64,000 nucleotides of DNA from Dioscorea cayenensis subsp. rotundata. Lineage: Eukaryota > Streptophyta > Magnoliopsida > Dioscoreales > Dioscoreaceae. The position numbers were made by a program, and so were the translations under genes. Positions 9,080 through 64,000 of the stretch are shown here, in pieces (within the stretch, counting starts at the first letter, position 1; each line of letters opens with the position of its first letter). The stretch spans positions 30,255,016 through 30,319,015 of the forward strand of contig NC_052475.1 in assembly GCF_009730915.1 (NCBI RefSeq), written 5' to 3'. Under the pieces are notes generated by a model. That model was not told the origin of the DNA, ran no database searches, and worked only from the letters and a program-made list of their open reading frames with translations.

Positions 9080-10540
9080 AGTTTGATAACGTGAATTGAC
9101 ATTATATGACAAGCCATATAGTGACATGGCAAGAGAATGATGACGTGGCTAGAGATGACTCATCAAAGAAAGAAGTGACTAGGATGATGATGTGGCAAAA
9201 GATGATGTCATAACATGTGATGAAGATCAACGTGGAGATTTTATTTAGAGGGTTATGAAGATCAAGGTTGAAGGTTTTATTTAGTAGATATTCCTCTCAA
9301 TACAAACCTCTCAGTCAAAGTAATGTGATGATAAACTATTTTTGGAAAGTACATCAAGTTTATATGATCTCTTCAAAAAAGATAAGTTTTATTTTATGTA
9401 TGATTGTCTATCCTTGGTAAGATTCAGGATGAGAATTCATATATTTGATAGAACTCTTTTTTATAAAAATCTATTTGAAGAGAGAGGAATATTCTATCAT
9501 TGGGAAGAATTCAACATCATAAACTTGGTATGAAGCTTTTAGAAGACACAAAATTTAGTTTGGTGTGAATCTATTTGAAGACACAAACTAAATAAAGTAA
9601 GAAGACATGCCAAGGAGATTATAAAGACTATATTTAGCAAACACAATTTGAAAAAAAGATCCAAGAGCTATTGATGGGCGGAACTATTCATGGAGATTTA
9701 TCATGTGAGGAGATTGTTTAAAGATTGCATGAGATATGATTGAAGATTTGGAGATCCTAGCATGGATGGTTGAAGATCATGCTGGAAGATATTGAAGGCT
9801 AAACTTGGATAAAGATGAGATCAAATTAGTAACAATATTTCCATAAGTCAAACGAAGATCATTTGGGAAGACCAAACTTGGGTCAAGTTTGGAAAGAAGA
9901 TCGGAAGATCTTATGTGGCTATCTTTTGTGAGATGGTCACGTGTGCCTTGGTGGGCACGTCCCTCAGGAGAGGGAGACCTACTGAGGTGACCTGAAGGAA
10001 GCAGCTGCAGGCAAAAGGACTCGGGTCGAATCAACTACTACGAGGTGGACTGAAGGAACCGGGAGGTTGAAGGTCGCAGATTCTGGTGCATCTGCCTAAA
10101 ACGCAGTCATGTTCAGTAAGATGGGCCATGTTGCAACTGGGTGTTGCAACATCTAACTTTGGAAGGTGTCCAAGTTAGGAAGCCGCGGAGAATTCTAAAA
10201 GAGGTAACTGTATGAGACGTCGGTGCGTCTATATAAGAGATCCAGCTTGAAGATTTAGGATGAGCCAACCACTGAGAGATTCTTTGGTGAGAGTTGAGTG
10301 TGTGGCCTTCGGGCAATCTAGAGAGGATATTTTTTGTGTTGTGAGAGTGAGTGAGTATTGTACTCCTTGTTCTTATACCTCTTTTAGTGAATTGTTTCTC
10401 CGGGCCTGACCCCCCAGATGTAGAAAAGGTTGTGCTGAACTGGATTATCAATTTGATTGTCTCCTTTCTCTTGTTTTGATTGTGTGTGTTTAATTCTTGA
10501 GTGAGTTTTTGAGTAAACTTAGCGCATCACACCCCATCAG
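9080..10540 (+). mobile_element. LTR-retrotransposon long terminal repeat remnant, probably Ty1/copia-type, solo
   Basis: About 1.4 kb of non-coding sequence with the look of a long plant LTR. It has a TATATAAG promoter motif at about 10229-10236, a downstream leader-like region (GTGAGTGAGTATTGTACTCC, TTTAGTGAATTGTTTCTCCG) typical of copia-type LTRs, and an end near ACTTAGCGCATCACA. No gag or pol coding region lies on either side, so it reads as a solo LTR or LTR fossil. Boundaries are approximate and I found no target-site duplication. It appears old and non-functional. Confidence 0.6.
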
Positions 10541-22941: not shown

Positions 22942-25900
22942 ATATAATACTCGAATCTAAGTTTTACATACACTTATATGCACATTGTATTTATAAGTTG
23001 ATAAAAAAATCTAGTCTGAGTTTTTAACTCATGTTAAATTTGTAATTTTTTTTAATGGGTTACTACACGCGACTTGTTCATATTATCTAAAGAATCTAAG
23101 TTAATTTGTTTAATATTAATAAATAAAGTGAATACTTTGATTAGAACAAGTTGCAAAGATATATGACTTTGGGGTTTGGAATAAGAGATAGAAAACTAAG
23201 AAAAGATAAGCCACTTTTTAAGGTGGTGGAGCATGGCGATGACACAAGTATAACCTGGCACTGACTTGGAATCAATAAATAAAAATAAATAAATAAATAA
23301 AATAAAATAAATAAAACAGCGATCTAAGATATATAGGTACTTGAAACCCTAACCCTAAAATCTATACATATTGTTGGTACGTGAAAACTATTTAAGTAAG
23401 CTTTGGTTTCTGATCCGCGGACAAAGGATGATGCACAGCAGGAGACATAATTGGGGATACTTAAAAACAAGTTGGTTCATAATTAGTATTTTGGTTGGTA
23501 AATGGAACATGTTTGGTTTTCACTGTATTATGTGTGCTATGTTATTGTTACAAGGAATTTATTTAATTAATATTATATATCAATAGTAAAATTCATATAA
23601 AATAATTTTAAAATCAGAAAAACACTTGTAAAATTAGTATATATATATATATATATATATGAGAATCCATCATCTAAAGACGTCCCTAAATTTCAAATCT
23701 AGGGATGTCCATAGTAGCCATCGGATGAAAATTTGACGGCTCTTATCATTATGAACAGTAGAAACCGCGTTCTACAGTGTTGTACAGTGATCATGAACAG
23801 TAAAAAATATACAGTGTTTATATAATCAATCAACCATCGGATGATGATCCAACGGCTTAGATTTAAAACGTCCCTAGATTTCAAATCTAGGGACTTAGAT
23901 GATGCTTTCCCTATATATATATATATATAATAAATATTGATGATGAGCAATTAACTTTGAAGACTCCATTTAAGGCATCGAATAAACAAATTTTTGTTTA
24001 TAAAATTCTTGATTGATGAAGAGTGAAAAAAAATGATTTTATCTTATTAACTAATTTTTAACTCAAATAAAATCAAATTTTACTTACTGTATTTTTAATA
24101 TATATCTTTGGGTAATGTTCATATTTCATATAAAATTAAATTTTAATCTTTTAATTCTTAGAGAAGAAAAATTTTCAATTTTTTTTATTGACGTTTGGAG
24201 AACATCACGATGATTTTATAAAAATAAAATATTAAAAACAAAATAATAGTAAAATTAGTATAAAAAATAATTATTGATGATGAGCTTAAGATGACAAGTA
24301 CATCTAAGAAAATGAGCGAGCAAATTTTTGTCCATAAACTTCTCAATCGTTAATAGAAGAAAGTTCAATTTTTCGAGTTGATATTTTAACACTTTAAGAA
24401 TTAAAGTTATAAATTAATATTTATGAAACGTAATCTATGACCAAGCTCGTGATCTTATATATATTTAGTCAAGGCATAAGTGTGTTTTCAATGTAGATAC
24501 ACATGTATCACAATCAGTTGAATAACTTATTAAGGTCATTAGCATTAATAATATTGACTGTTTAATTAAAAAAAACAATATTATGCCTTAATTTGAAGAT
24601 GCAAGTTAACAACCACTTCTTTTCCCAAGTGAGAATAAGAACCCTAACTAAGCTTTAGAGATTCCTTGGCTATCCCCACCCAATTGGCCCACTCTTATGT
24701 AATATAATAAGAGAAACTCTATTCCTTTACTTAATTTCTAGATCCTATTCAATTATTTAATATCCATGATATATATGCCATAAACATATGATTGAATGAA
24801 CATTGAAATGAAATTATGGAAATAGGATTTTTTTTTGTTTAAATTATTTTTTGATTTTTGACTTGCAAGTTTATCGAGAGCTATAATGCTAAACCAATTC
24901 AGATAAAAATACTAAAATTCATATAAAGTAATAAATATTTTTTAAGGCAAATTTAATAAATATAAGTAATCAAATTTTAAACAACTTGTTTGAATGACTT
25001 AACTCAAGATATTCTAATTATACAGTAAAAATAGGTCATATATAAGCATAGGGCTTTTGCCGATGAATTATATAATTATTGATGTGCTAATGAATCTAAA
25101 TTTTTTTTAAGAACCAAATTTTGAAAAAGAAATTAATGCGTTTGAATTTCAAGAGTTTTAATGCATATCGCTCTCAATCATGCATTACAAAAAATTATAC
25201 CATTAACTACTAACAACTATACTTTAAAACATTAACCTTTTGTATTTATATATATAAACCCAAGAAAGAACTCCTAACTACTAATCTCTTATTAAAAAAA
25301 CCTAGTGGAGAGCAAGATTATGTGCCAAAAAGTAAAGGGAGATTTATTTGGTGGCTTTCATTGCATCTTTTCATGGAGGTCCCTCTCCACCATAAAAAGT
25401 CCCCAAAAAGTCCCAATTGGATCTCTCACTCTTTTTTTTTTTCCCTCACTCTCTCTCTCTAGACTTATTACTTATTAGCACATTCTCATGCAAGTTGAAC
25501 ACCTTCCATTTCTTCATATATTCCCATTCTCTCCGCACAAATATATTAATTTAATTGATAACCAATGGAGTAAAATGAACGCTTTTCAGATGTTTAAAAT
25601 CTTAATAATGTCTTCTAAAACATAATTAATTAAGTTGCCAAATTGTCACAAGGATTGATGCTGTATCAATCCATCTGAGTCGGCTATATGGCCCATGAGA
25701 GTGATGCTTGAGTTTGACACCATTAATAATGGTATTGGTGACTACAACCATTTTTTAAATTTTTTCTGCATTTTTTAGAATAAAGTTTTCTAACAATATA
25801 AATATATTCATGTGGACTCAATAATCTTTCATCAGCCAAGACTTCATCCAAGGTTGTTTAACTCCCAATTTTGTTGGAAGATTTATTACAAGACATAACA

Positions 25901-26412: not shown

Positions 26413-27829
26413 TCAAGCTGCTGCAACAGTTTCACCACTGCCAGAGGAATCAGTTCCGGTGGACACCGACGGAGTGTCTTTCTTCATCGATGACAATGAG
26501 CACTTTTCTTTCCGTTCATCATAGTTCATCTGCTGTTGCCTGCATTCCAGACTGCAGAAGGCCATCTCACCCCTGAAAATTTAGATGAGAAATGAAGATC
26601 AGCAAATAACTTATATACATATATATATTTTTTTAATTTTTAATATGAACATGCTTCTAAGTAACGTTTAATCAATCCAAATTAAAGGTTTTCTTCAACT
26701 TGTTAGTGACATTGAATTGCAGAACAAGAATATTTGCTTGTTGATCAAGAGGTTGAATATTGAAAACTTCAGAAGAATGATAAGAATAAACTGGTACAAT
26801 GAACTGATTTGCATATGGTTTTCTCGGATCTAGAAAGGCTCTTCATTATATAACACAATAAAATGTTAAGAATGCATAGTAATATATATAGTGTTGCTTA
26901 GATTCCACAAGAACTAGAACAAATATAAGACCTGTGACACATCATCATGAGTTACGTGTTTGACATAAATCGTGAGAGGATCCATAGATCCATGAGAAAG
27001 CAGTCACTTTGAACACTAAGAAGTAAGAAAAGAAGTTCATATTCATCAAACAATAGCTGTCATAGAACTAAAACTATCTCCTTTTTTTCATCACAGAATG
27101 AATAGAGTTGATGCAGCAAAATACTTTATCCTTCTGAATCTTTAAACAGACAAGCAAAATAACAAAAAAGATAAAAATATTCATCTAAAATAGATCCTTC
27201 TCTTTTTTTCTTCTTTAATAACAAGTAAATGAAAATAGAGTCAACCTTTCTTCTTCTTCTTCTTCTTCTTCTTCTCTCTCTCTCTCTAAGAATACATATA
27301 TATATACATAAAGGGCACAACATCTATACATGAAGATCGAATTAATCATTCAATTTATCAGAGTAAACAAACGTAAACAAAAGCTAAAAATCCGATCTTT
27401 TAACACCTCCAAACTCAAAATCCCATTTTTTTACCGCAAAAATCACTTAAAAAAACCAGAAAAAAAAAGAAAAAGAAAAAAGACACTTGCTTTCTTAATT
27501 AATACGGAGAAGAGAATAAGTTAGTACCTATACATGAAGATATCTCTACCAGGCCCAAGCCTACGCTTGCAAAGACCACAAGCCTTGAGAAAAGGCGCAG
27601 TATCAACAACAGAGAAATCCGCAGAATTCCTCCGGTGCCCGGCTCTGGGCGTGGCCACCGCCGCCACATACCTCGAGGTAAGCCACTCGGGGACATCCAC
27701 CGGCGCAGCCGTTCTCTGGTTTTGCTCAGCCTGAGGCTTTGTCGTTTCAATGACTCCAACATCAGGGATGAACTCGGTCATACTCGTCGTCCGCCGCATC
27801 GGAGGCCGAGGTCTCTTTCCAAGCAACAT
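26413..27829 (-). CDS. FCS-like zinc-finger (FLZ, DUF581) protein
   Basis: Two exons, 27528-27829 and 26413-26572 (split Arg codon, donor GTACTA, acceptor TTTTCAG), encode about 153 residues. The N-terminal part has the family's MRRTTSMTEF motif. The FLZ domain spans the intron at about residues 83-125: FLKACGLCKRRLGPGRDI, then AFCSLECRQQQM, giving the C-x2-C ... C-x3-C zinc ligands and the FCS signature. FLZ proteins are plant-specific adaptors that bind SnRK1 kinase subunits in sugar, energy and ABA signalling; that role is inferred from the family. The tail is Ser/Thr/Gly-rich. A G-box-like ACACGTGGC lies about 900 bases upstream. The neighbouring cyclin T gene is divergent and more than 5 kb away. 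Confidence 0.95.
27250..27289. repeat. (CTT)n(CT)n microsatellite in FLZ intron
   Basis: About eight CTT units followed by about six CT units within the single FLZ intron. Confidence 0.9.
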
Positions 27830-30800
27830 GCTTTGTTTCCCTCCTTTTTACTTGCTTCTCCGATGCTATAAGAACCCAAGCAGAAGGAGGAGCTCAAGAT
27901 CAGCAATGGCGGTGGAGCTCTGAAACTCTCAGCCAAAAGAGAAGAGAAAGAAGAGAGTAGAGAGACGAAGGGGAGAGACAGAGCTATAAGGGAGAGAAGA
28001 GAAGATCTTAGCCGTTCATTTCAAGCTCTTCATCCGTGACGTACACGTCATCATATTTCTTTTTTTGTTTTTTTTATACATTTTATTTTTTTGAAATTGA
28101 AATAAATGGTTTTTTTGTTGTACAGTATCCAATGATTTTCCACACTCCGTGGACGGTTTAGCACGGGCATAGCCGGTGGATAGTGGCTGGTCACCGGCAA
28201 CTACCGGTGAACCTCAGTAACCGCCAACCTCGGGCCAAGGCCCAAAGCCTAATCCATCGGTAGATTTTAAATCGAACGGTTGATCTTCAACCAGTGGTAG
28301 ACCCAAAGGCTCAAGATGAGGGCCCAATGGTATCGCGCTTTAGAAAGTGGGCCTTGAGGAATCATGACTGTTGGGTCCCGTGGTGGGCCCAGATCCGAGT
28401 TGTCACGAGAGCGATAGGAGAACATAGTGTGGGCCCGGATTATTCCATTGGGCTTTCTTTTTCCATAAAAGCACCTACAAAACTTGTAATTGTTGGCGTG
28501 TACTATAATACAAACCCCCCTCCATTAAGTAAGTAATCATTAATTATTAGAAAATAATAATTTAAATTAATTTCTTTAAAGATGTAAAGGCATCTGTATA
28601 TGTATTGATTTGGTACACATCCATATTTAATACGATATAATTAGAGTATAATAATATAGTATTTTTATAGAAGATATTTTTTTAAAAAAATAAATAAATA
28701 AATGTGGGGCCTGGTTTCGATGAATTAAGTGAGTACACGTGGCGAGGAGGGTGAGGGTGCATGGGGGGGTAAACGCACCGTGAGGGTAGGGGACCAGGAG
28801 AGGGCAATTTGGAGTGATGTTTTGGTTAGGGGACAAAGTTGGGCTGGACCATCATCAATGGCCTTATGTGCAGATGAGGGTACACGCATTGCCATTACTG
28901 GGCCCCCCTTACCTTCTCTTCCACCAATTCATTTTACTTATAAATTATAATTTTTTTATTTTTATTTATTAATTGTATTTTTTTTAAAAAATTTATATAG
29001 TTGGAGAAAAATAAGGAGAAACTTACAAAAGTGAAAATAGACTTTCTTATAAAATTACTATAAAATACATAGGTATTAAATGTTTATAAATGATTCTAAA
29101 TAGCCCAACAATTTAGGTTATCATTCTTTCTTGGAGTACCTATCAATACCGTATTTATGTAAATATAAATCATTCAAATTTTTTTTTTTAAAAAGCAAAA
29201 TAAACAATGACCTTAAATTTAAAAGTAAATAAGAGTCCTATACAAGTATGGTGAATAGTATAAATAATGGTTTGTCAACTCTGTAAAAAAAATTATATGT
29301 ATATATAATAATTTGTAGTAATTCTTAATGTATCAAGCAAGTGAAATTATTATTACTAATAATTTTTAACTTGTTATTATGTATTTTAATATAATTTTAT
29401 ATTAAAATATATTGTACTGGTAATTGTCAAAAACACTTTGGAAATTTTTTTTATGCACACTTGGTCCTCTCAAATTTAGGTATTCCAAAAAAAAACATTC
29501 GTTTTTTTTTCTGAAAACTTATTTTTAAATACCTATGACGTAAAAAAAGGTAACGTTAACAGAAATGATCATTATCTTTTAATTAAAAACACATAATATT
29601 AAATGGAAAAATATGATATTAAATTAAAAAAAATATATATTAAATGAAAGCCTATATGGTTATACATAAACATGTAATGTTAAATAAAAATTATAATTAT
29701 TAAATAAAAAATAAATATTTTAAGATAAATTAAACTCACGAAAAAAGAAGTTTACTGAAAAAAAAAATTATATGAAAAATTCAAATATCAAATGGACTAT
29801 TTACGTGCAAAAAAATAATTTTCCCTACATTGTATTTTGAGTTAGTTTTTCTTTTTTTTTTTATTTTATAAATAGTAAATTCTTGTAAGGAAACTGGTGA
29901 TAGCCGGTGAAGGGACCCGAGCGTGTGAGTCAGGGCATGCGTGGGCCCACTGCCAGCAATAATTCGTGGCTGGTATCCATTATTGGGCTCCGGTCCACTG
30001 CTGTCCTTTTGTTTATATATAAATTATTTATAATTTATCTTTATTTTTTTATTATAAATTATTTTTTTTTAAAAAAAAGAGCAAAAATGGAAAGCTTGCC
30101 AGCCAATGAGCAACTACTTCTTTAATCTCACTTGGTGAAGGGCCCCACGCTTACTCAGCTTTGTTCTCTTGGTCTCTTCCTTAGTATTTTACTTGTCTTA
30201 ATTATTCATATTATTGAAATAAGCATGCTATTAATTAATCATGTTTTGCACGAAGTTGTATGCTTTAATAATAATGCAGATTTTTTTTTATATATACAAT
30301 GAGATAAATATACGATTAACATCATGTTTTTGTTTGGGATAGCAATTACTCTTCTCTAGCCAAATAGGGAGAAATAATTTAATTATTTAAATAAATTTAT
30401 TTGTTATAAATTAGAAATTAATTTTTTTATTTTTTTAGAAAATATTTAATTTTTATATTATTGGTTTAAGTCAATATTGTTAAGCTTAAATTTAATTTCT
30501 TTCTAGAACAACATTTTTTTAAAATATATATATATATATATATATTAACCTCACAATATTTATCTTCTAATTAAACATTTAACCCAATATTAGAAAAAAA
30601 AATCTCTTAATCTCACACTCTTTCTATCCTAACCAAACACTAGAGAAGTTGTGTTAGTTGAAAATTCAAAAAGTTGAATTGTGAGAAATGTGCTGCAAAT
30701 ATAAAATAAAAAATATAACAAAAATAGCAAAAAAACTAATTTAATCCCATTACATTTAAATGACATGGTCTCTCGGTTTCTAACACAACGACCACACATA

Positions 30801-33194
30801 CACTGAGAATTGGAATTTTATTCCCAAATAAATAAATAAATAAATACAGTATTGCACTAGAAAACAATTCTGTCTATTTATTTGTTAAACTTTGAACAAA
30901 TTAGCATTAGATTGTGTTTGACATATTTAATGTCAGCAGCCACATGAAAGTGATGAAACTTGTGTAGTAAAAAAAATGTCAAATTTCAAGTAACATAAAG
31001 ACTTTTTTTTTTTAATTATTTATCATTTATAGTTTGGATTTATTTCACTACTGATCCTTAAAATTTCAAATTTAGCAACTAAAACATGTAAATTCATTAT
31101 ATATAATAAAAATAGTTTTTTTTTGTTTAATAAAATGATTAAAATCCTTGGATACGCTATCACGTATAATGCTAACTTAGCAAGTGTAGATATTGCAACC
31201 AATTTGAAACAAAGGAAAATTGATGATATATATATATATATATTTACATTATGCAGGAGTTCATGTATATATATAAAGTATAAACAGTTGTTAGAGACAG
31301 CATTAAAAAGTTGCAGTAAAAATATCAGAGAAGAACTAACTGAATGCAGTAAATGAATAATGCTATTTATCTTGATTTGGAAAAAAAAAAAAACAGTACA
31401 ATGATGAAGACTAACAAAATCAAGGAATCAAAGATGAGCTGGATTTCTGAGCAGAGGACATGGAGTTTAATGCCATGAACTGATAGTCTCATAAATTTTA
31501 ACTTCATTTCAAGTAAAGAACACACAGAAACACAGAAGATGACTTCACAAAGAAACAAACAATTGATCATGGTCAGTAAAAAGTAGATTTTTCAGTTAAT
31601 AAAATAAAAAAAAAGTAAAAAAATCTCTTCCAATTCAATTCAAAGGAATCTCAATCCATATCCTGAGAAATTCAGTAGCCCCAAACTTTATTCTTCATAT
31701 CTTGCTTTACATTTTCATGGTGTTCCCCACTTGAGGTAGAGAAGAGAGACAAGAGCATTTAGAACCTCTCAATTCATTCATGCACTCAATTTCAACTCTC
31801 TCTCTCTCTCACTCACTCACTCACTCACTCAATGTCTAGTGGCAGAATTCATTCCATTCTCTCTATCTTTTAATTTTTTTTTGTTTTAGAGTTTCATTTA
31901 TAGGAATTACAGCTCAGGGACAAGTCCCTCTAGCCACTAGTTTTGATCTTATGTGCTCTTTGCTTGTGCTTTAGAAAGTTAAGGAGGAGATGGCAGATGC
32001 ACAATGAGCTCATTATGGTCCTACCAAGAGAAAACAAAATACCAAAAAAGGGCCACACTTATGACTCATATCCCACTCACCATGCATCAACTTTAAGCTC
32101 ACATTTGTCTTTCAGAATCAAAAATATCCTTCACATAACTATCCCAAAATTTTTAAAAAATAATAAAAAGTAACAAGAATGGCAAGCATTAGCCAGCAAC
32201 TCTTGTTGTTTTTTGGGACTTTGAGAGAGTTAAATAATGATAGAACATGTTGTTTTTTTGTACGGTCTCAATGGGAGCAACATGGGACAAGAGTCATACA
32301 TTCAATCAAACAGTTAATAGATTGCTGAATTATTTGTTTTGCTAAACCATGTACTGTTCTGAGCACCTACTTCTCTGTTTATACTTCATAATGCATTCAA
32401 CGAAACTTCTAATTAAACACGCTGAAGAATTAATTCATCTAGGCATCAATTCAGGAAACAGAATAGAGAGGAAACATATATCATGTTATTATCATTCTGC
32501 ATTCAAACTCCATTAAACAATGTTCTTCACTAGCATAAGAAATAAAGCTAAAAAAATTCAGCAAGATAAAAAAACCAACTAATGAATGTGTAACTATAGA
32601 CTATAGTAAGATGAACACCTTATTCATTCAAATCTTGGCCTTAATTCTCATGATTACATCGAGTTATCTACTTACTTAGCATTGGAAAAAAACCGACACA
32701 TACCGAAGTATCGAGACTCACAGTTAAGCAGCAGAATCAAAAGAGGCAATTCTTCGGAATTCATGCTAAGACTATCATGATCCAATCAATGTCACAACAC
32801 ATTCAGTAAGACATTAAAAGATGTAACAATGGATTAAATCATAAGCAAGTAACATAAACAAATCACATGCAATACCAAATCATTATAAAACACAATCTCA
32901 AATTGCAGACCAGTCTTTAACAGTCCCCACCAAAGCACTAGATAGCTCATGTAAGATTAAAAGTAGTGTGTATCACTCAGCAGCTTTTCAGCAAAACACA
33001 TGAGACTCATTTCATGACTTTCACAAAAGCAAACTTTTGAACAGTTGAGTGTCATTGTAGTGAGAACTTTAGTAGCAATATGCTGATGCTAACATGCTAT
33101 TTACACAATTAAAATAATAATTTAATTATTTAATTTATTTTTTTTAGGAACTAATTTGAAGGTTGATCTCTGAAAATAATTCGAATAATATCCA
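27830..33194. other. long intergenic region between FLZ and cyclin T genes
   Basis: No gene supported in about 5.4 kb. 27830-28000 is the purine/pyrimidine-rich FLZ 5' UTR. 28130-28480 and 28700-28930 are less AT-rich patches; the first has the hairpin TCACCGG-CAACTA-CCGGTGA near 28190-28210. The rest is AT-rich with (TA)n near 30525 and 31227. A CT/ACTC-rich patch at about 31795-31830 has no ORF after it. Confidence 0.5.
28735..28743. promoter_or_regulatory. G-box/ABRE-like site upstream of FLZ
   Basis: ACACGTGGC, the core recognised by plant bZIP factors in ABA-responsive promoters. It lies about 900 bases upstream of the FLZ start codon; function is inferred from the motif alone. Confidence 0.4.
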
Positions 33195-33387
33195 GAATTC
33201 AGGCCCATACTCGTTGCATGTAATGGGCCTAATGGATGGCCTATAAGCCCATGTTTCTACCGCCGGCTTCATTAGGAATCCTGAACCGCAAAAGTGCCTC
33301 GAGATCATAAATACATCATTGAGTATTATTCTATTCTATTTCGCCTCCAACTCTCGAAGCCTCGCATCCCGGGTTCCTTTTGGCCCC

Positions 33388-33425
<38 letters not shown>

Positions 33426-35160
33426 GTTTGGGACGAGGGCGCTCGGAGACGACGCAGCCGGAGGCATAGAAGGTAGGATTGTAATCTCTATCTACTTATC
33501 CATGTCTCTTTATCTATGAATCAAGCTATATATCGATCTATCTATCTATATTTGGATTGGATGATTTGGTTTGGGATGTCTTCAATTGTTTTTAATGCGG
33601 AGATTTCTGTGATTTTGGCTTAAATTTAGATTTTTTTTTTTCAATTTGAGCAAAATCTAGGGTTTTTTTAGATGGGTGGTGATTGGGGATTTGAGCGGAA
33701 TCTAGGGTTCTCTTCATGATTAGTGTTTGGTCGTTAGGGATTTTATTTTTAATATACTTAATGGATATGAACTTCGGTAGTGAGTGATTCGTGGGAGGAT
33801 AGAGGAGTTTTCTTCGTTGTTGATACGTTTACTCTTACGAAGTATATATTTTTAACAATTTGATCATGATTTTCTTCTTCCCCGCTTAGTTAGTGCTGAT
33901 CCTCCTAGGTTGGATTTTGATGATGGGTAATTATTTGATGTAATGTGGATGAATTGTGTGGAAATTGAATTGTGTAGTGGATGAGGTGATTATTTTGATG
34001 AATGAAGACAAAGAGGTTTAGGTGGATGCTAGCTGAAACCATGGTGGAAGGGTTTGAAATGAGAAGCTTCTCTGTTTGGGTTACTGTTTGAAGTGCTCTG
34101 TTTCAAAGGAGGGAAACTGTCCTGAGTATGATTTACTAATAATCATTGCGTTTTGGTATGAGAGGATTTGGATTAACCCTTTTGTTCAAGAGTCAGTGAG
34201 GTCAATTAATTGATTCTATATTTCATTATGAATCCTTCTTCTGACCAATCTTCTAGAAGTGCTGGAAAACCTAAGTAATCAGGACAATCTAATGTAGCTT
34301 TAGAGTCTTGCGTGCTATTTGAAATAACTTTGAAAGCAATCACTGTTGTTACTCAATTCACACATTATAAGAGGTATGCATGACTATGGTGTCATCTTTA
34401 GAAAAAAAGATTATTTGCAAATCATGTCCTTTGTAGTCTATGTTGACTCTGTTAGTAGGTTGTTTCTCTTATATTATCATCTATGATGAATGATTAGTGT
34501 GCTACTTAGTATCATATGAATCATGACTTGCCCAATTTAAAGAGATGTAGATAAAGGGAATATAGTTTGGCATTTTTGACATAGACTATGAAGACTTTCA
34601 GTGAAGAATATTAAAAGTGACAGGCGTAGTTGGACCTTGAAACTATTTATATGATTTTGTCCTTGTTACTTGAAATCTAAATGTGACATTCATGCTATTT
34701 AAGATTCTTGATTTTTTGGCAAAAAGACCAGAATAGTAATGTTACCAGGAAGTAAATGATACTGATGTGCTTGCTTTATGTATTAACTCATAATCATTAG
34801 AAAGAGAGAATTTTGAGTGATAAACTGTAAAGTACAATTTAAGTTGATGGTGTAATAAAGGACTTTTTTATTTTGCTTAGGTTCTCATGGAATCAAGTTT
34901 TTTTTTAATTTTGCATTTAAATTACGATAGCCGAACCTTCTTTTTTTGTTTCTACATGCATGTGCATGGAATCACCAAAAGTTCATGCTTGGAACAACTA
35001 GGGTTCTCGTGGAAGTCTTTTAACCCTGAGGACCTTTAACACCAAGGTAAAAACTTTGGGAATTATATATTTCATCAGTCAATTTTTTAGGTCCAAGTTG
35101 CATTTTTACAGCTTGATGTCTCAATACACACCACTTATATGTTTTCTTATTCAAAAATCC
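33195..35160 (+). repeat. cyclin T leader region, copy A (promoter, 5' UTR exon, intron start)
   Basis: First of two tandem diverged copies. It contains a promoter with three TGGGCC/GGCCCA-type elements (33203-33252), a CT-rich 5' UTR with (CT)16 at 33391-33423, a donor at 33473 (AAG|GTAGGA), and about 1.7 kb of intron. Its partner is at 35803-37870. Shared landmarks include GCCT(C/T)GAGATCAT, the CTATCTA pyrimidine run, ATTATTTGATGTAATGTGGA, and CAGCTTGAT(G/A)TCTCA near the end. Confidence 0.85.
33391..33423. repeat. (CT)n in cyclin T 5' UTR
   Basis: Sixteen CT units in the presumed 5' UTR of copy A. Copy B lacks the long array. Confidence 0.95.
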
Positions 35161-35802
35161 TTTATATGAACGTATAATTGAGATCTAAGAATGTGTTCTA
35201 GATTTGAAGAAAGATGTTTAGAAGATGATATGTTTTGAGAGGATTGTGCCCAAAGGGGTCATAATTTATGGCAAATTTTGGATCATAAACAAACATGTTG
35301 TATGGAGCACAAATTGTATACATTGATGTAACAATGTATTTAAACAGCATAAGAAAATTACTTACAATATCAAAACTCACATGTTACTTAGACCCTATAA
35401 GTGAGATTAAATTGATAAACACAAACCGAAGTCATAATTCAATCTTTATAACCCACAATATAATAAGTGTTTATATATAGTTCATGCAAATTTAATTATT
35501 ATGTATCAGTACCCTGCTTTTCAGCAACAATATAAGAATTCAAGTCCTGTATTACAAATTTCAGGCATTTATATAAAGAAACTTCTGCTCAGAGCTTTAT
35601 AGTTGAAAGATTTTAGTTTTCATGACTTAAGACCCTGTAAAATAGTCCCTAAATTTTGGATTAGGCCCTATGTTTTGTGTCATTTTACTGAAATTTATCA
35701 TAAATGGGCTTGTGTAGGCATGTTATTGAATTCTTGAATCTATATTTTTGGGACTATTTGTTTATTTTCCTTAATGAAAAAGTAGAATAAGAACACGTAA
35801 AA

Positions 35803-37870
35803 TTTAGGCCAATATTTGTATTTGATATGCTTCACGCGCATAGGTAGTAAAGCCGGTGTTTGCACTGCCGACTTGAAGAGGAAGCCTGGTAGAATCTCAG
35901 CTGTCAAAGATGCCTTGAGATCATTAACCAAATCAATGCATTTTATTATTTTTGGTCTTTAACTAAAGAAGTGTTGCCCTAGGGTTTATTTTGCCCCTTT
36001 CTTACTCTCTCCCTGGTGCTCCCTTGTTTGTGACAAGGGCACAGAGACGCCGCCACCTAAGGTCTCTCTCGCTTGCTCTTGCTCTCGCTGTGTGTATGCA
36101 CGCTTGTGCATCTATCTACCTACCCATCCGTCTGCCTCTATGTATCAATCGGTCTATCTATCCATATTTTGATTGGTTGATTTGATTTGAAATGTCTTCT
36201 CTTATTTTCTAATTTGCATGTTTGTGGTAATTTTTTGGGCAAAATTTGACTATTTGTTTCTTTTCAATTTGAGCAGAATCTAGGCGTGTTCATAGTTGTG
36301 TAATGCTTTTTCAATGAGGATTAGGGATTTGATCTGATTAGGTTTTCTGTGGATCTAAAGGGTTGACAGCCTCATTTCAATTAGCATGTGGTTTTTAGGA
36401 GTTCTCCTTGTTACATTTGCTCTTACTAATACTTTTATGTAACATTTCAACCATGATTTATATTTTTGCGCTTAGTCATATTGTTGGTTCTCCTAGATTG
36501 GCTTTTGTTGATGGATAATTATTTGATGTAATGTGGATGAATTGTGTGGAAATGAAATTGGTATAGTGGATAAGGTGAATGTAATGAAGATGAAGATATT
36601 CAAATGGATGCAGGCTGAAGCTGCTGAACTGCTGGTAGAAGGGTTTGAAATGAGAAAATCATTTGTTGGGGTTATTGTTGGAGTGCTTTGTTTTGAAGGA
36701 ATGGAATGCCTTGATTCTTGAGTACAATTTGTTGGAAATTGCTGCCTTTTGGGAGATATTGAATAAATCCATCTTTTTGAGAGTTGAGTGTGGTTAAGTG
36801 ATTCATTATATATAGGAATCCTTCGTTCTGATCAATTTTTTACAAAATTTGGGCAAACCTAAGTAATCAGGATTATCTAATGTAGCTCTAGTGCCCTGCA
36901 TGCTATTTGAAATAATCATTATTGATACTTATTTTGCACATTATTAGAAGATATCTAACATAATTATTACTGCTGCCATCACTACTCACTTGAATCATTT
37001 GAGGTGTTTAGGAAGGCATTTTGATAGTTTTGGAGGTTGTATGTAAGATAATATAATTTAAGTGGATAAAAATATGCTGGCTATGGTCATTTAAAAAAAA
37101 TTACTTGCAAATCATTTCTTTTAAGATTTACATTGACTGTTATCTCAAGTAGTTCTTTGCCATTTCCTAGTTTTTGATTCATTGATTAACAGCTTGCTTT
37201 CTTATACTGTTGGTTATTATGAATAATTATTTCACTACAACATATCATATGGATGAAATCATGACACACTCAACTTTAAGAGATCTAGATGAGGGGAATA
37301 GAGTTAAGGTTAGGATTTTTGACATAACAAAGACATTGATCAATGAAGATTAAAAGTGATAAGATAGGTTGGATCATGAAACTGCCTGTCAAATTTTCTC
37401 ATCACTTGTGGTGTAAACATGAGGTTCATGCAATTTAAGATTGTGAACATTGGCAAAACGACAATAATAGTAATGCTGCTTGAAGTAAATGGGAACTTAT
37501 TGTCTGCTTTGTGCTGTAATCATTTATGGGGAGAAACTGTGAGTAATAAACTGTAAAGTACCATTTGAGTTGGTACAGATGGTATAATAAATGTCTTTAT
37601 TTTGCCTAGGTTCTCATGGAATCTTGTTTTTATTTATTAATTTGAATTACAGTATCCTTGGGTGCCTTTTTTTTGTTTCTATGTGCTTGTGCATGGAATT
37701 GCCAAAAGATTCATGTTAGGAACTACTAGGATTCTTATGGGGGCCCTTTTAACACCAATGGAAAATCTTTGGGAACTAAGATTTCATCAATCAATTTATT
37801 AGGTTCAAGGAGTATGACAGCTTGATATCTCAGTACACATTACTTAAATTGTTTCTTATGTATGGAATTT
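35803..37870 (+). repeat. cyclin T leader region, copy B
   Basis: Second copy of the region at 33195-35160. The offset is about 2.6-2.7 kb, with about 640 bases of unrelated sequence between copies. It retains the CT-rich leader, a possible donor at 36062 (AAG|GTCTCT, weaker than in copy A) and the intron sequence. The TGGGCC elements are mostly lost. It could be an alternative first exon and promoter, or a decayed duplicate inside the first intron. Confidence 0.8.
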
Positions 37871-38672
37871 GGTCAGATTTGTCCATTGAATAATGCAAGT
37901 CATATGATCTATCAATTTGTTTGTGTGTAAAATAGATTGTGTGTTTGAGCGACCCTGATTTTTTTTATTGAACCTCATCTCTTTTCCTCCTTACAAAAGT
38001 AACCTCTGTAGAATAAAATTCCTACCACTTATTTCTATGGAATTATTTATTTACCAAAGTTATGGCATTGGTTGTTTGATATGAGCGTATATAATTATGC
38101 GTTTTGATGCATAACATGAGGTGGATGCATTCGTATACTGGACAATGTGAATGTTTACCTTGTTAATCATTACATAGGCATTGTATGGTTGCTATACAAG
38201 ATGGTGTTATTTCTTGATAATCGTGGGTCACAAGCTCATTACTTAGCATTTGCTTTTTAGTCATGGTTATGTAGTGCAAGAAACATTTAGCTTCTATGCT
38301 AGATGTAGTTGATTGTTTTCATCAATGGTATTCATAACACACAAATTCTAACAAGTTGAACCTGTTTGTTATTATCTACTTCATCAGGACAAAGACTTAA
38401 GTACCTGATCTTCTATAGGTTTAGCTGAACAATTAATTTTTGTGCTCTTTTAATGGAACCGACTTTTTCTGCAAAAGCACTATACTTTAATTTTTTTTTT
38501 AAGTTGTACTCAAGATTTTGAAGTGCTTTTATCCGAACCTGCTTGAGAAAGAATCTTGTCATTAACACCAGTCAATTATGTATGCAGATTTTCTTAAATT
38601 TAATATTATATCTGTTTATTTGACTACATAAGTCTTTTAGTGTAAGCTGGTCAGGAAGATTAAAAGGTCCAC

Positions 38673-41600
38673 ATGGCCACGGTGCTACCTGGGGATTCCT
38701 CACATCATGATATGGACCTCGATGACTTTGGGTCTAGGTGGTATTTCTCTCGGAAGGAAATTGAGGAAAATTCTTCTTCTAGAAAAGATGGCATTGATCT
38801 GAAGAAAGAGACATATCTCCGGAAATCTTATTGCACATTTTTGCAGGACTTAGGCATGAGATTGAAAGTGTAAGCCCACTCTTACTTCTTTCCGATTATC
38901 ATGAATTAGTTGAGTGGCATTTAACCTGTGATTGAGAGCAGTGTATTTGAATAATGGGAGATTGCAATAGTTGACATTATTATGAAATTTTATTCTGTTG
39001 TGGATTACAATTTTGGTGTAAAGTTTGTGGCATGATATAAAAGGAATATGCGTAATATAGAATCCAGATAATTTATGTCTTGAAGATGTGTTCTGTTATT
39101 AGTTATTTATTTCTTGTGCTATGCATTGACTGCATAGTATGTTGTGGACACATCGTAAGAATACCATGTAAAAGTTTGGGTATCTAGGGAGTGATTATGT
39201 ATATGTGGTCTTGTTGTGCTAACCTAAATCCAAGAGTCTCTCTCTGTGGCTGAAATCAGACTTTAATACACTAACCGGAATGGATTGTCAAAATTGTTTA
39301 CTGCTTATTGATGAGTTGTCTATAGTTTTGCTATAATGATTACCTTGCATTTTGCAGTACTGCATACTGTTGCATTATGAGGACCTCTCTCCTCTTGTGA
39401 TGCCTTTTTATATCACTGACATAAACTACACATATTGCAGACCTCAGGTGACAATAGCTACAGCGATAGTATTTTGTCATCGTTTTTTTCTTCGGCAGTC
39501 TCATGCCAAGAATGATAGAAGGGTGAGCATCTAAGCTGTCACATGTCTTATTTACTTGTTCCAAATTGCATACTAAGCAAACTTGTGGTTGCCATTGATT
39601 CAGTTTTGTTTTGTTCTCATCAAAATGTCATCATATTCCCTGATACAGTACTTTTTATTTATTCTGATGATTTGAGGGATGGTGATCTGGAGACTATACT
39701 TTTTATTGGACCGTCAATATTTCTGAATGTTGCAAGTAATGCATATGGCATTAAGAATGTGATTATCTTCTACTGAAGATGTTGACTGTTCTGTGCCTTT
39801 TGAAATGGTTTCTATACAAGCAGTAGATGGGATGGATGTGCATGTGTAATGGAATTTACCGATTGTGTGCGACTGCTGACTAATCATGAATATAAATTTG
39901 ACTAGGTATTAAATTAAGCTCTTCTATTAGTCTTCTGTTTTGTTCTTCTTGTATCCTCTTGTTCAGATTGCCACAGCTAGCAGCCCATGTGGAACTACAG
40001 ATCTAAAATCAGAAATTATTATTTCACCAATTCTTTTAGAAATGCGGACGAGCCACTATTGGTTCTTCCCCCTTTTTTTTGGCATCATTCATGCTGGTCG
40101 TCATCCTCCCTTGTTTTTCCTTTTTCTTGGCCTTATTTTTCTGTTTGCTACAGAGTCCTTTTCTTGTTTGTTTCATCATGGAACCTTTCTATGAACCCTT
40201 GGAAGTCTAGCTCACTTCATCATTATTATTGCTATTATTTTAAAAAATAGACCTAACTCTATGAAGACCCAAACATGCAAATTTTCACTGTCTTCGAGTT
40301 TTTTTTTTCTGACCATGTTCTTTTTTAGAATTTAGCCAAGGCTACACATGTTGCATTTGAATTAGGGCAAGGTAGACGGATGTTGATTGAGGATGTGATC
40401 GTTAGTTCTGAGTCTAGCAAGATATAAATGATATGAATAGGGATTTAGATTGGTTATGTATTTGACACCAGCATCTGCCTTTTAAACAAGGAAAATAAGA
40501 TTAAAGGGCGAGAGAATTATTCTAGAAGAATTATTAGATATGGAAAAGGACTAAATAACACAATAGGATATAAACAGAAAGGCTTTCAAAGCTATGCATT
40601 TTGGGGAACTTGTCTGTTACAAGATCATCCCAAGTGGCAAGTATGTTTTTTTTAAGTTCGTTATGTTACAGTTGCCAGGCCTTCAACCTATGCTTGTTTT
40701 CATGTTTGGCAACCTTATTCTTTTAGTTGGTATTTCAAGATCATTTCGTTGCTTTGTCTGATCGTGTTGGCCCTCCCAACTTATTTCTTGGTGATGAACG
40801 AACGATGATATGTCAACTGTGTTTATTAAGTCAAACTTGTCTATGGGCAGTTTTATCAAATTCTCTTATTTGTATGTAAATGTTTTGTGCAAGAGTTGAT
40901 GGCTGTGCTACAATTAATTGATTTTGGTCAAGAAAATGGTCAGATGAACTTCCACATCTTTCTTTGATCTCTTCCTTGAGTAATTATTTTTTTTCTGCTT
41001 TCAAGATGAAGCAGTTGATTGGTTTTTGTTGTTGCTTTTGGGTAGCATTGACTATTGGGAATTGTTGCTTCTTTAACATTTTGGTTTGGTTTCAAGCTGT
41101 GTTACTTGTTTTGATTCTGCTATAAGTGTAGCTTCTTGTTGTTGAAATAGTGGTTCTACTTTGAGTGAATTAGCTTACTACTTTTTGTCAGTTTTTAGCC
41201 TATTGAATGATGAAAGATTAGCATTTGATTGGTTACCCTCATTCTCATGTAACTTGTGCATCTATCTTACAGACCATTGCAACAGTGTGCATGTTTCTTG
41301 CTGGGAAAGTTGAAGAAACTCCTCGTCCGTTAAAGGATGTCATTCTTGTCTCTTATGAAATTATACATAAAAAAGATGCATCGGCTGTCCAGAGAATTAA
41401 GCAGAAGGTACTCATACTTGTTGTGGGTTTATTGATTAAGAACCTTGTTGCAAACCATGATAAAGGCTGATGAATATGGTAAAAATTGTCATTTTGTCCT
41501 CTCTTATAATTTAGTCCAAATTCCATCCCTCCCCCACTCTTTATCTCTTAATATATATATATATATATTAGATACTTGCCAAACTTCGAAGGCTACAACA

Positions 41601-43248
41601 AGTCTTATTACCCTTTTGTAGGAAGTATATGAACAACAGAAAGAGTTGATACTACTGGGAGAAAGGGTTGTTCTCGCCACACTTGGATTTGATCTTAACG
41701 TGCACCACCCTTATAAACCCCTGGTAGAGGCGATAAAAAAATTCAAGGTTGCGCAGAATGCTCTTGCTCAAGTTGCATGGAATTTTGTGAATGACGGGTA
41801 TGTTAAATCTTCTGCAACTATTTTTCAAGACAGCTATGGCATAAGATTACATTGGCTTTGTCATTTTATATTTCTTCACACATTTAGAAGGGGTTTGCAG
41901 GCTGCGGACATCGCTCTGCTTGCAGTTCAAGCCCCACCACATAGCGGCGGGTGCCATCTTTCTTGCTGCCAAGTTTCTTAAAGTGAAGCTGCCATCTGAC
42001 GGGGAGAAGTTTTGGTGGCAAGAATTTGATGTCACACCACGGCAATTGGAAGGTTCAATCTATTCTTTGTGCAGTAAAGATGGTTCTTATGAATGTACAT
42101 AAATAATCATGCTCATGTGCCTGGAATTTGGTTAATTTACAGATGTCAGCAACCAAATGTTGGAACTGTATGAACAAAATCGGCCCTTGCAGTCTTCACA
42201 TGCAAATGAAGTTGAGGGAAGCACCAGTGGTGGGGCTAATCATCCTGCTATGAATAGCTCTACCTTGAATGATAATCCTGTATCTTCAAATGGACGTTCA
42301 CATGCTAGCGAGATGGTTAATGTGAAGCAAGGAACCCAAGTTCCACAAACTGGGAGGCCAGGTGTGCCTCAAGCATCCTCTGATCACAGGACATTGCCTC
42401 AGAGAAGTTCACAAAATCAAAGCAATGAAGATGGAAAAATTGATACTAAGAATGGGGCTTGGGATCGTACCATCGGAAATGAAGTGAAGGATAGCATGCA
42501 TGATGAAGTGGAACCACATTTCCGCAGCAGGGAGAACACTACAGACGCTTCAACCCGGGCAGAGAGGCATTTTCGAGATACTGCAACAAATGAGGCCAGT
42601 GAAGCCCTTGAGTCAAGGGAACAGAAGGATGAAGCTTCGGCTTCAAAAACTCAGAGCCCCCTAGATGCTCTTTCAAAAATCGATAAAGATAAGTACAAGG
42701 CTGCTCTTGAAAAAAGGAGGAAGCTCCGAAATGATGTTTCTGTCAAGTCTGACTTAATGAATGAGGATGATCTCATTGAAAGAGAGATTGAAAATGGGAT
42801 TGAGTTGGCAGTTGAAGATGAGAAAAAGCAGGAGAAAAGGCAAGGATGGCCAAAGCCCCTGAATAGCCAACAATCTAAAAATCAGAATTTTGGCATGGAG
42901 CAAGGTAGCACTAGGGACAAAAGAAACTTATCAGAGCAGCAATCACTGAATGGGAAGAATAGCTCAAAATATTCTGATTCTGAAGATAGAAGAGCCACTC
43001 CAAATCGTTATATTGAACAAGAGCACCTTAATGCAGAGGAAGGGGAGCTATCTTCTCTTGATGAACATGAATTACCTTCTTCTCTCAAGTCATTGAATAA
43101 TAGTGAGAGGGCTGCCAATGCAGGAAAACCTTTTGAAGGCAAACGACCACATGACATGCCTCATCAATTGAGAGAACCAGCTGGGAGAACATGGATGGAA
43201 AATACTGATAGAGATCATAAAAGGTTCAGACGTGAGAGTCATGTATGA
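38673..43248 (+). CDS. CYCT1: cyclin T1 (P-TEFb cyclin, CYCT1;4/1;5 type)
   Basis: Coding exons are 38673-38869, 39441-39522, 41273-41407, 41622-41797, 41901-42052 and 42143-43248. All phases join, giving about 615 residues. A 5' UTR exon near 33290-33472 is spliced to an acceptor at about 38654, leaving a leader intron of about 5.2 kb. The double cyclin fold spans about residues 20-250: [91 protein letters not shown]. The remainder is hydrophilic and disordered, with the conserved [17 protein letters not shown] near residue 430. It partners CDK9/CDKC kinases to phosphorylate the RNA polymerase II C-terminal domain in elongation. The sixth exon's donor is GTTCAA, unusual but required by phase. 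Confidence 0.95.
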
Positions 43249-46006: not shown

Positions 46007-48655
46007 ATGGCTGCTTCTACATTTCAACATGCCCTTGGTACTGTTAAATTCCTTGGCTGGGATAGTAGCCCTGGTTCTCAAAATGGCATTAGTACTTTCT
46101 CTGTGAAAATGGTTTCCAAGGATTTTGGCCTAGACATGAGGCTGCTTAAAAGAGGGAATTGCAGCTCTGGTAGCTGTAAGTTGAGAATGGTTCATGCATT
46201 AGCCTCTCATTCATCAGTTGCTGATCCAGTTCAGGCACCATCAAACCAAAACTCAAGTGATTCTCAGAAAAAGACCAGTAAGTCCTGCACATTTTGTTTC
46301 AGCTTCCCCTGTTCTCGTGAGTTTAAATTACAAAGTCAACATAATTTTGGGATATACTGAAATTTTCCTGGTTGACAAATTGCAAGAATTATTGGTAATT
46401 AATCTATATGAGATTCTAAGCTCCTGAGTTAACTTGCTTTTCCATAAGTATGTGCCATTTTAGGTTACATATTTTGTTCTAGAAACTGAATTGTTCTTCA
46501 AATAAATATCTAACTGTATATTTGTGCTCATTGCAGATGAAACTGCACTTATATTAATTCGCCATGGTGAGTCCTTGTGGAATGAGAAAAATCTGTTTAC
46601 AGGATGTGTTGATGTTCCCTTGACCCAAAAGGGTGTGGAGGAAGCAATTGAAGCAGGAAAACGTATAAGCAATATACCTGTCGACATTATCTATACATCT
46701 GCACTGATTCGTGCTCAGATGACTGCTATGCTTGCCATGACCCAGCATCGACGGAAGAAGGTTTCTTTTCTGAATCTGCTTTGTTCCAATAATGAATAGA
46801 TAGAAAATCCCCATATAACCAGATATTAAATTATTTTTGTTCCTTGTTTTTACTATTGTTGGTTTTCAGGTTCCTATTATCATGCACAATGAGAGTCAAC
46901 AGGCCAAGACATGGAGTCAGATATACAGTGGAGATACGATGAAACAATCTATCCCAGTCATAACTGCTTGGCAACTGAATGAAAGAATGTAAATAGCTTG
47001 ACTGCTTCATGTTGAATATTGTTACTTGCATAGCAATCCATCTTTCTTGAATGTTTCTTATTCTCTCTTCCGTCATGCTGCGGCATTTCTTTTAGGTATG
47101 GTGAACTGCAAGGTCTCAACAAACAGGAAACAGCTGATAGATTTGGAAAAGAGAAAGTCCATGAGTGGCGCCGTAGCTATGATATTCCTCCTCCCAATGG
47201 AGAAAGTCTAGAAATGTGTGCTGAAAGAGCTGTGGCCTATTTTAAAGAGCAAGTGAGATTACTCTATAAACACTCTGTATAACTAAGAATTAGTTGTTTT
47301 CTTTATCATGCAGCACCATGTGACCTTTTTCTCTATCTAATTTATTTTATTCATGTCCCTTAAAATTTCTTAGTAAAAGAAGGTTGATTATAATTATTTC
47401 ATATACCAAAAATCATGCCATTAATGGCAAAGAAAAGAATTATATTCCACTTGTCAGGTATCTAGCAAAATCTAGCTGATGCCAACATGCCATAGTTGGT
47501 GAGATGCTTTTTGAAAATTATAAACTACATGTGTGAAAGTTAATCTTTATTAGAGGACTTGTACTTTTTGGTTTCTTTTCCTCCTACAATGAATATAGGG
47601 CACTCTCTGTTACCAGAAAATAATTTCCCTGGGTCAGAACTTTCTCGATATTTGCTCATAATCTTTATCTTAAACTAGTCTCACCTGAATATTTTCTTCT
47701 AATGGTTCTCGGCACTAAAGGTGATTTTTCCCTTGCAATCACCAAACTCTCTGGCCCTTCATGAGTTGGTTCATAGAAGTCACTGTATTATGATCAATTG
47801 GTTAGGCACAAAGAATGTCATGTATGTATATTGAATTTCTACAATTTTAGCTTGTGTGCTCTGTTCATCTGTCATTAGGATTGACATTTTCATAAATCAG
47901 GCATCTGAATGATATTTTCAAAATGACATGTGCTGATAGAAAGTTCACTGTTTCTTTGAATTATTTACATAAACTTACAACATGACATTTTACCTCACTG
48001 TAACTACCCTGGTATCCCATGTATTATTTGGGCTACTTACAGTTATATTTATCAGTATTGTTATTATTATGGTGGCAGATTCAACCTGATCTTTTGACGG
48101 GAAAGAACATAATGATTGCTGCCCATGGAAATTCACTGAGGTCTATAATTATGTATCTTGACAGGTTGACTTCTCAGGAGGTGATATTTCCATGAACTGT
48201 GTCACTTAATGAACTCATACATAGTTCTTTGAAAATCGCTGAATTCCATGTAATGTTTCTATTTAAGATGCAAAACTAATTTTCTTACAGGTGATTAGCC
48301 TTGAGCTGTCAACTGGCATTCCTATGCTTTACATATTCAAAGAAGGAAAGTTCATCCGTAGAGGAAGCCCCGTTGCGCCTTCTGAAGCTGGAGTTTATGC
48401 CTATACCCGGGTATGTAAAATCTTCAGTCTGTTATAACCTTTTACTGTTGTTTATTCACAAAATAGCAACATAGATTTGATGGTATCCTGTACTTTACAA
48501 GCTGAATTTTACACCTTCGTAATGTATGAAAGTCACATTAAGTGTGGTCACCACAATTATGTCACTTTTATGGGTAGTGGCTGATTGATCTTCTGCTTCA
48601 TATTATGCAGAAACTCGCTCTCTACCGACAGAAGCTAGATGAGATGCTTCACTGA
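46007..48655 (+). CDS. plastid 2,3-bisphosphoglycerate-dependent phosphoglycerate mutase-like protein
   Basis: Seven coding exons, 46007-46277, 46537-46760, 46870-46988, 47096-47252, 48079-48180, 48291-48410 and 48611-48655, join in phase to about 345 residues. A 5' UTR exon ending near 45294 (AAAAG|GTGAGC) is spliced to an acceptor just before the ATG. The N-terminal 90 residues lack a domain and fit a plastid transit peptide. The histidine-phosphatase fold follows: catalytic His100 in [17 protein letters not shown], then [35 protein letters not shown], and second His273 in [17 protein letters not shown]. The family interconverts 2- and 3-phosphoglycerate through a phosphohistidine. Plant cytosolic glycolysis mainly uses the unrelated cofactor-independent enzyme, so this is the plastid-type paralogue; its physiological role is inferred. 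Confidence 0.95.
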
Positions 48656-62679: not shown

Positions 62680-63399
62680 CAGTCCTTAAAGACACAACTC
62701 AACCAGAAACACAAGATTTACCTGCCAAGAAAGCACACATTTCAATTATGACAACAACACACATCAAGAAAACGAAATTCAAGATAGTTTCTTGAAGTCT
62801 CAAACAAGCTTAATAAATTACTGAAAAGAAAACTAAAAACCTAGTTCAAAGAGTAAAAAGAAAGCCATTTTCAAACAAGCCAAGCTCAGCAAACCAAAAA
62901 AAAAAAGACATCTTTTCATTAATGTACATCACAACCACTTCCCATAGACGCAATCTGTTGGTAAGCCAACAAGTTTCAAAGCAGACAATCAATAAACACC
63001 CACAGATCACCAAAAATAAAATAACTTTTGTAAAATATCCAAACCATACGGCTTGCTAAAGAAAACGAAGTTCAAAATCACATCAAAACTGCAAGTAACC
63101 CCTTTGAGACACAAGAAAAACAAAGATGAGAAATTTTCCAGAAAACACGACCAAGAAAACCAAGGAATGGTTTAATTTTCAGTCAATGCACATACAAACA
63201 CTTCACCCAAACGCGATCTGAAAGAAAGCGAGAAAATCTCAAAGAAAAATGACAACTATTAGCACGAATTCCACTCTAGGGTTTCACTCACTCCGATTTC
63301 ATTCACGAACGGATCAAGATTCGCTCAAAATACAAAAATTACACATAAGAGAAGAGCAATAGATGAAAAAAATCGATCGAATCTTGGATACTAACCTCC

Positions 63400-64000
63400 A
63401 GATTGAAGATGAACGACGAGAATCGGGGTTTTGGGGAAGGGGCGAGAGCGGGGGAGCGAGGGTTTTGGGAGGGAAATATTATCTTTAGAAGGGACGTGAT
63501 CGCGCGCTTCTCGTTTCATTTATGTTTCACGGGGCGTTCCGTTACGAAATATCCACCGTTTATTTGCTTCGGGATTGATTACATAATGCCACGTGGCGAG
63601 AGCCTTTTCAGATGCCGGGATAATTACGCGGCTAAAGAGTTTGAACAGCTGCTTTTTTTGGGCCGGGCTTTTAAACTGGACTGCAGCGGCCCAAGTTTAC
63701 TTTTTTTCTATTTTAGGATATTGTGTAATTGCGTATATACCCTAAAAAGGTTTAAATTTGAGTATATTGGTGAATCATATATTTCGCTAATTGCCCACCT
63801 AACCCTTTAAATTTTGTATGAGTTATCAGATGTGACAGTAGATTTAAAATTAATATATGAAATAACATGTATTTGCAAGTATATTTATCAACAACATCTT
63901 GACCTATATATTGGCACCAAGTTTTTTTTATAGTGTGTTTTTTTGGGAAAATCATGAGATCAAACTCAAAAGTCTGTGCAAAATAAGAACAAGTATAATT
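63400..64000. other. promoter side of the unknown gene and right window edge
   Basis: Upstream of the unknown minus-strand gene; its 5' UTR probably starts near 63400-63500. A G-box lies at 63588-63597. The last 250 bases are AT-rich with no gene seen. Confidence 0.5.
63588..63597. promoter_or_regulatory. palindromic G-box
   Basis: GCCACGTGGC, a perfect 10-bp palindrome and a strong binding site for plant bZIP/bHLH factors. It lies about 150-200 bases upstream of the probable transcription start of the unknown minus-strand gene. Confidence 0.6.

Follow-up and report, generated by a model that had tools for sequence, protein, structure and literature searches.

In a 64,000-nucleotide stretch of the genome of the yam Dioscorea cayenensis subsp. 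rotundata (contig C5:30255016-30319015; hereafter the window), the non-coding front end of a cyclin-T gene appears to have been duplicated in tandem, so that two diverged copies lie one behind the other upstream of a single set of coding exons. We judge it probable that the outer copy (copy A) provides the working first exon, and that the inner copy (copy B) is a decaying leader enclosed in an intron. An old head-to-tail duplication would have taken in the promoter, exon 1 (which is non-coding) and the 5' portion of the leader intron. Copy A retains a CpG-rich promoter, exon 1 and a good splice donor, and most likely contains the transcription start; its transcript would be spliced to exon 2 at position 38587 across a leader intron of 5.1 kb, with copy B inside it. 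Copy B, now intronic and with an eroded exon end and donor, is probably a leader in decay, parts of whose intron sequence may survive as regulatory sequence. All features described below are on the forward strand unless marked otherwise.

Copy A (33171-35150; promoter, non-coding exon 1 and the first 1.7 kb of the leader intron) and copy B (35775-37859) are collinear in self-BLAST, which paired 33487-34327 with 36111-36915 (69% identity, E = 2e-73) and 34457-35150 with 37191-37859 (70%, E = 4e-81). These blocks are the sole same-strand repeats in the window at E ≤ 1e-6, and one inverted pair (23642-23708 with 23868-23929) is the only further match. Global alignment of 33170-35160 with 35770-37870 produced 2,220 columns, 1,872 of them ungapped and 1,313 identical (70.1% of ungapped columns; K80 distance 0.389), with a longest exact run of 38 nt (33928-33965, identical to 36516-36553). 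Against shuffled sequence the promoter-plus-exon block reached z = 17.1, the two cores 37.6 and 44.9, and the middle block 7.1; no shuffle out of 100 matched the score of the promoter-plus-exon, core or middle blocks. These results support the tandem duplication of promoter, 5' untranslated region (UTR) exon and first-intron sequence that a sequence-only reading of this DNA had proposed: the two stretches match lengthwise, both contain the landmarks it had named, and both lie upstream of the cyclin-T coding start at 38673. With exon boundaries taken as predicted, the unit is a direct repeat of the promoter, exon 1 and part of intron 1, and DNA self-comparison found no second copy of the downstream coding exons in the window.

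If the duplication was a simple tandem one, the stretch immediately preceding B should be a copy of that immediately preceding A. The spacer at 35151-35769 and the sequence preceding A were reciprocal best partners (among 1,240 and 1,238 windows; z = 3.6 and 4.2), and the match picks out 32628-33168 as a probable, strongly diverged upstream arm of the unit on the A side (z = 4.2; reached by none of 100 shuffles), which would place the A/B junction near 35150/35151. Because the next unrelated AT-rich windows come close (z = 3.2 and 3.0), this upstream extension is probable rather than proven. The sequence after B is unlike what follows A, their score being reached by 12 of 100 shuffles. We also considered the spacer as a remnant of the cyclin-T coding region or of its 3' flank, and both were ruled out (z = -1.3 and -0.1), leaving the unit without visible coding sequence, as the earlier reading had held. 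The duplication was probably contiguous, head-to-tail and non-coding, with a unit of about 2.6-2.7 kb; the copy size of about 2 kb first proposed fits the aligned copies (2.0-2.1 kb each) but not the whole unit, which probably also includes 32.6-33.17 kb on the A side and the spacer on the B side.

The host gene was characterised by an exon-by-exon domain scan, which found Cyclin_N at 26.4 bits (cut-off 23) and CycT2-like_C at 23.8 bits, under its cut-off of 27, in a span with the later exons (41222-43248). One exon matches nine PDB sequences, from cyclins K (six), L (two) and T1 (one). On the sub-threshold CycT2-like_C match, we tentatively take the gene to encode cyclin T, the cyclin of P-TEFb. 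Exon 2 opens with a 5' UTR part (38587-38672), followed by the first coding part (38673-38870). In the genome searched (584,211,761 bases, 2,249 contigs), the nearest cyclin-T paralogue lies at C19:2.44 Mb, with protein identities of 80-86% in four exon pieces and 59% in the last. A single leader is predicted for this paralogue: its CT-rich exon ends near position 9327 of the joined stretch and is followed by an intron of about 0.4 kb. Its acceptor (CAATTATTTGTGCAG/ATTT, the slash marking the junction) aligns with window positions 38572-38586 (CAATTATGTATGCAG/ATTT); the region scores 141, and the highest of 300 single-base shuffles reaches 125.

Neither A nor B had a blastn match at E ≤ 0.01 in any of the four cyclin-T-like paralogue stretches, among them C19; the match to the C19 leader rests on a more sensitive comparison, in which 1,700 windows of 300 bp were ranked and scores were tested by shuffling. 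The C19 leader intron ranked A first (z = 6.2) and B next (5.7), with the best unrelated window at 4.5. The scores of the B promoter and of both introns were reached by 0 of 300 shuffles, and those of the A promoter and of the A promoter plus exon 1 by 3 of 300 each; for a relative of the leader on contig C1, the corresponding counts were 14 (promoter) and 18 (exon). With one C17 paralogue stretch, A came no higher than seventh (z = 3.8; best unrelated window 5.9), and the remaining two were compared with A and B by blastn alone. Given the C19 matches at the intron start, promoter core and acceptor, together with the homology of A and B, we regard the duplicated region as very probably the leader native to cyclin T, in agreement with its original assignment to this gene.

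One could instead suppose that A and B are part of another transcript, for instance a non-coding RNA, and that the cyclin-T transcript begins shortly before 38.6 kb. Relatives of the leader core at C1 and C10 speak for this, as no cyclin-T exon piece was matched at E ≤ 1e-6 in about 51 and 53 kb downstream of them, respectively. We regard it as very improbable, however: the C19 cyclin-T gene has a matching leader intron, promoter core and the same acceptor, the interval 37860-38672 is AT-rich with an observed/expected CpG ratio of 0.34, and Rfam gave no match at gathering score in the 64 kb.

Copy A has the features expected of a working leader. Its predicted non-coding exon (exon 1A, 33331-33472, start estimated) contains no ATG, has a (CT)16.5 tract in or next to it (33391-33423), and ends AAG/GTAGGA; the exon end is similar at C1 and C10, where the donor is again GTA. 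With hand-written position weights, as for all splice scores given here, donor A scores 8.5, second of 319 GT sites; the predicted leader intron that it opens runs for 5,114 nt (33473-38586) to the acceptor shared with C19. The A promoter core (33278-33336, the CCTCGAGATCAT block) is also found at C1 and is the weak match to the C19 promoter given above. The top four windows by CpG count between the upstream FLZ gene and cyclin T fall at 33.1-33.7 kb.

At the exon end and donor, copy B is only 48-52% identical to A; C1 and C10 keep the exon end of A and a GTA donor, which B does not. The relic donor of B (AAG/GTCTCT, 36062-36067) scores 3.8, rank 35 of the 319 GT sites. A scan of promoter stretches for TGGGCC-type elements (TGGGCY or RGCCCA) gave three in A and none in B, in line with the earlier description of A as keeping such elements and a good donor, and of B as having lost most of them along with donor strength. 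The observed/expected CpG ratio is 0.61 in B against 0.99 in A, and CG in A faces TG or CA in B at seven sites, against one the other way, in the promoter and exon (5 vs 1 in the next 400 bp). Changes specific to B outnumber those specific to A by 61 to 16 with C1 as reference, by 37 to 14 with C10, and by 32 to 8 where C1 and C10 agree. Exact matches to the intron-enhancement motif TTNGATYTG number none in A and two in B and are uninformative. The sequence-only reading had left open whether the gene has two alternative first exons or a dead second leader; the eroded exon end, poor donor and CpG deficit of B favour the latter without proving it, and alternative first exons are less favoured.

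Several observations weigh against this division of roles, which was read from sequence features. The C19 promoter ranks B first (z = 6.2), ahead of A (3.5; best unrelated window 2.9), and its promoter core scores 120 with B against 93 with A, barely above the best unrelated score (88). C19 exon 1 ranks A first (z = 5.6), yet an unrelated window reaches 5.5; the poor rank of B against the same exon (368 of 1,700) is weak evidence for that reason. The rate comparison assumes that C1 and C10 lie outside the A-B pair, when they may derive from A, and the tree behind it is weak (supports of 51 and 71); when C19 serves as the reference, the two copies differ little in this respect (11 vs 3 in the promoter, 32 vs 20 in the intron). 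The polarity of the CpG differences between A and B is not established, and other differences between G/C and A/T have no steady direction (50 vs 34, 43 vs 52, 69 vs 49 and 68 vs 75). The absence of upstream ATGs from the predicted A leader, a property of 14 of 941 neighbouring 228-nt windows, speaks for A, but the comparison was not matched for composition, and the B exon up to 36061 is likewise free of ATGs. B has one TAGGGTTT element, absent from the scanned promoter of A, and its exon is still partly recognisable against A. Four tested islands in the alignment are 83-95% identical, so part of B may be constrained. We restrain our confidence because C19 exon 1 does not separate A from an unrelated window and because the B exon is eroded, not absent.

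These points bear on the possibility that both copies are working alternative promoters sharing the acceptor at 38587, with B spliced from a donor at 36227 or 36575. The promoter core of B (35889-35946) gives the best match in the window to the C19 cyclin-T promoter, the two donors are of moderate strength (6.1 and 7.3), and the island at 33883-34008 has been retained in both copies. There is also a plant precedent, PEP1 of Arabis alpina, where a tandem duplication of about 2 kb spans portions of the promoter and of intron 1 together with exon 1, and both first exons start transcripts according to 5' rapid amplification of cDNA ends, showing that such a structure can yield two transcripts (PMC3527215). 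Yet the exon end and original donor of B are eroded and its CpGs depleted, and a B exon extended to 36226 would carry four ATGs, whereas one ending at 36061 carries none. We consider two live promoters unlikely, and continue to prefer a working A and a decaying B.

Conservation between A and B is patchy. The variance in identity along the alignment exceeded that of all 2,000 column shuffles at each of three window sizes. The top-scoring island, 33883-34008 in A and 36469-36590 in B, is 88% identical (105 of 119 columns) and contains the 38-nt exact run, for which column shuffling gives P = 0.0008. Constraint on one copy only would lead us to expect about 83% A-B identity in the islands; three islands fit this, and the fourth (34867-34907) departs from it at P = 0.035. 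Under the same one-copy model the 38-nt run has P = 0.014 within a stretch of 120 columns, rising to 0.19 when the alignment is taken in full. The islands may possibly reflect local gene conversion or constraint acting on both copies. An RNA gene or hairpin in the islands was rejected: the lone Rfam match in 33150-38700 has E = 0.41, far under its gathering score, and six island folds are ordinary (z = -0.09 to -1.47). The 33883-34008 island might, weakly, represent a cassette exon, as its donor is conserved in both copies (6.4 and 7.3), although the acceptors rank only 26 and 55 of 272 AG sites. Among 16 comparisons of the islands with C1 and C10, two at C10 were weakly above shuffles (z = 2.7 and 3.0) and none at C1 was. 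The 38-mer had no match in viral contigs, a collection not expected to include plant DNA.

The duplication can be placed relative to the paralogue. Synonymous divergence (Ks) between the window gene and its C19 paralogue is 0.885 (545 codons), and for the delta genome duplication of yams the published median Ks is 0.869 (PMC9010478). The A-B distance of 0.389 is under half the paralogue value, and no clear second leader was found in the 9.1 kb upstream of the C19 leader; on these two grounds the A/B duplication is probably younger than delta and probably postdates the genome duplication that produced the C19 paralogue. If the intron evolves at the synonymous rate, A and B have probably diverged about as far as D. 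alata and D. zingiberensis, whose published median Ks is 0.389. The locus offers a datable example of what becomes of a promoter and leader after duplication, where a single one may suffice. Features persist in the outer copy; the inner one, now within a 5-kb leader intron, has eroded at its exon end and donor; and the C19 paralogue, with its single leader and predicted intron of about 0.4 kb, is a reference in the same genome.

A genome search with copy A (E ≤ 0.001; five candidates scored, hence a lower bound) gave seven matches: A itself, two pieces of B, one match at C1 (3291269-3291551, 73%), two pieces at C10 (13265026-13265139, 81%, and a 30-base CT run), and C16:13516198, which was dropped as a TCTA simple repeat. 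C1 also has a promoter piece, separated from its exon by an insertion of about 0.65 kb. This insertion (about 3614-4270 of the C1 stretch read) looks transposon-like by eye, and a retrotransposon gag frame lies about 4.4 kb 3' of the C1 leader donor; in Pfam searches of six C1 frames, we found retrotransposon gag and otherwise a sub-threshold transposon match or nothing. At C10 the exon unit is present three times, as judged by eye. A search with the C10 leader returned 28 matches at E ≤ 0.1, itself included; away from C10 and the window, eight with a length of 150 bp or more were found, on C6, C11 (two), C20 (two), C18 (two) and C9. Only those on C6 and at C11:10833010 extend to the exon end and intron; the other six end at query positions 223-224, inside the exon units. 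The C6 relative has a decayed donor and shares flanks with C10. The C10 leader (C10:13264999-13265449) and the places found with it make up a low-copy dispersed family resembling the cyclin-T exon-1 leader, with three matches about 3 kb apart on C20 (15347180, 15350370 and 15353172), a pair on C18 and another pair on C9 separated by 5.7 kb.

Such dispersal would suit the idea that the repeat is two transposable-element copies rather than a local duplication. We think this extremely improbable, as the A-B homology is collinear for 2 kb, the spacer is what a tandem duplication predicts, and a related leader is present at C19. Moreover, besides A and B no copy-A match fell outside the core of exon 1 and the first 200 bp of intron at E ≤ 0.001 (the same lower bound; the C1 promoter piece came from a separate comparison), and a full unit with defined ends was not found elsewhere in the genome by this lower-bound search, which yielded partial core matches only. 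The dispersed relatives may have been captured from the cyclin-T leader or may belong to an older repeat, and they raise the question of spreading first exons. Quite doubtfully, the leader core (the CT-rich exon 1, donor and first 170-200 bp of intron) could be a dispersed first-exon module, duplicated here, spread to C1, C10, C6 and C11 and, in its exon part only, to C20, C18 and C9, and able to supply promoters or leader exons to other transcripts.

By analogy, the A/B arrangement is of a kind already known in plants, with PEP1 as a close precedent. PEP1 likewise has two first exons before one set of downstream exons, with diverged sequences upstream of the first exons (PMC3527215), but there exon 1 carries coding sequence, 6.3 kb separate the copies, and both are live. 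In the window the first exon is non-coding, the starts of the copies are about 2.6 kb from each other with 30% divergence, and the exon end and donor of B are eroded. In work on plant leader introns and intron-mediated enhancement (PMC2682935, PMC3095359), a non-coding exon 1 is reported to precede an intron whose end lies close to the ATG exon; the same layout is predicted for C19, where the intron is about 0.4 kb as against 5.1 kb in the window. HvARM1 of the Triticeae is also a partial gene duplication long retained, though there coding sequence was duplicated and a new gene made, rather than a 5' end duplicated in place (PMC6092874). We found no paper on this cyclin-T locus in the literature searched, whose coverage was limited, and make no claim of priority.

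Around the locus, an FLZ-type zinc-finger gene (27524-27847, reverse strand; zf-FLZ, 41.5 bits) lies divergently about 5 kb upstream of copy A, and an exon of the histidine-phosphatase superfamily (46506-46796; PF00300, 70.7 bits) lies downstream of cyclin T. Near the end of the window, 63201-63800 is CpG-rich, with observed/expected ratios of 1.3-1.7 and a GC content of 0.42-0.50.

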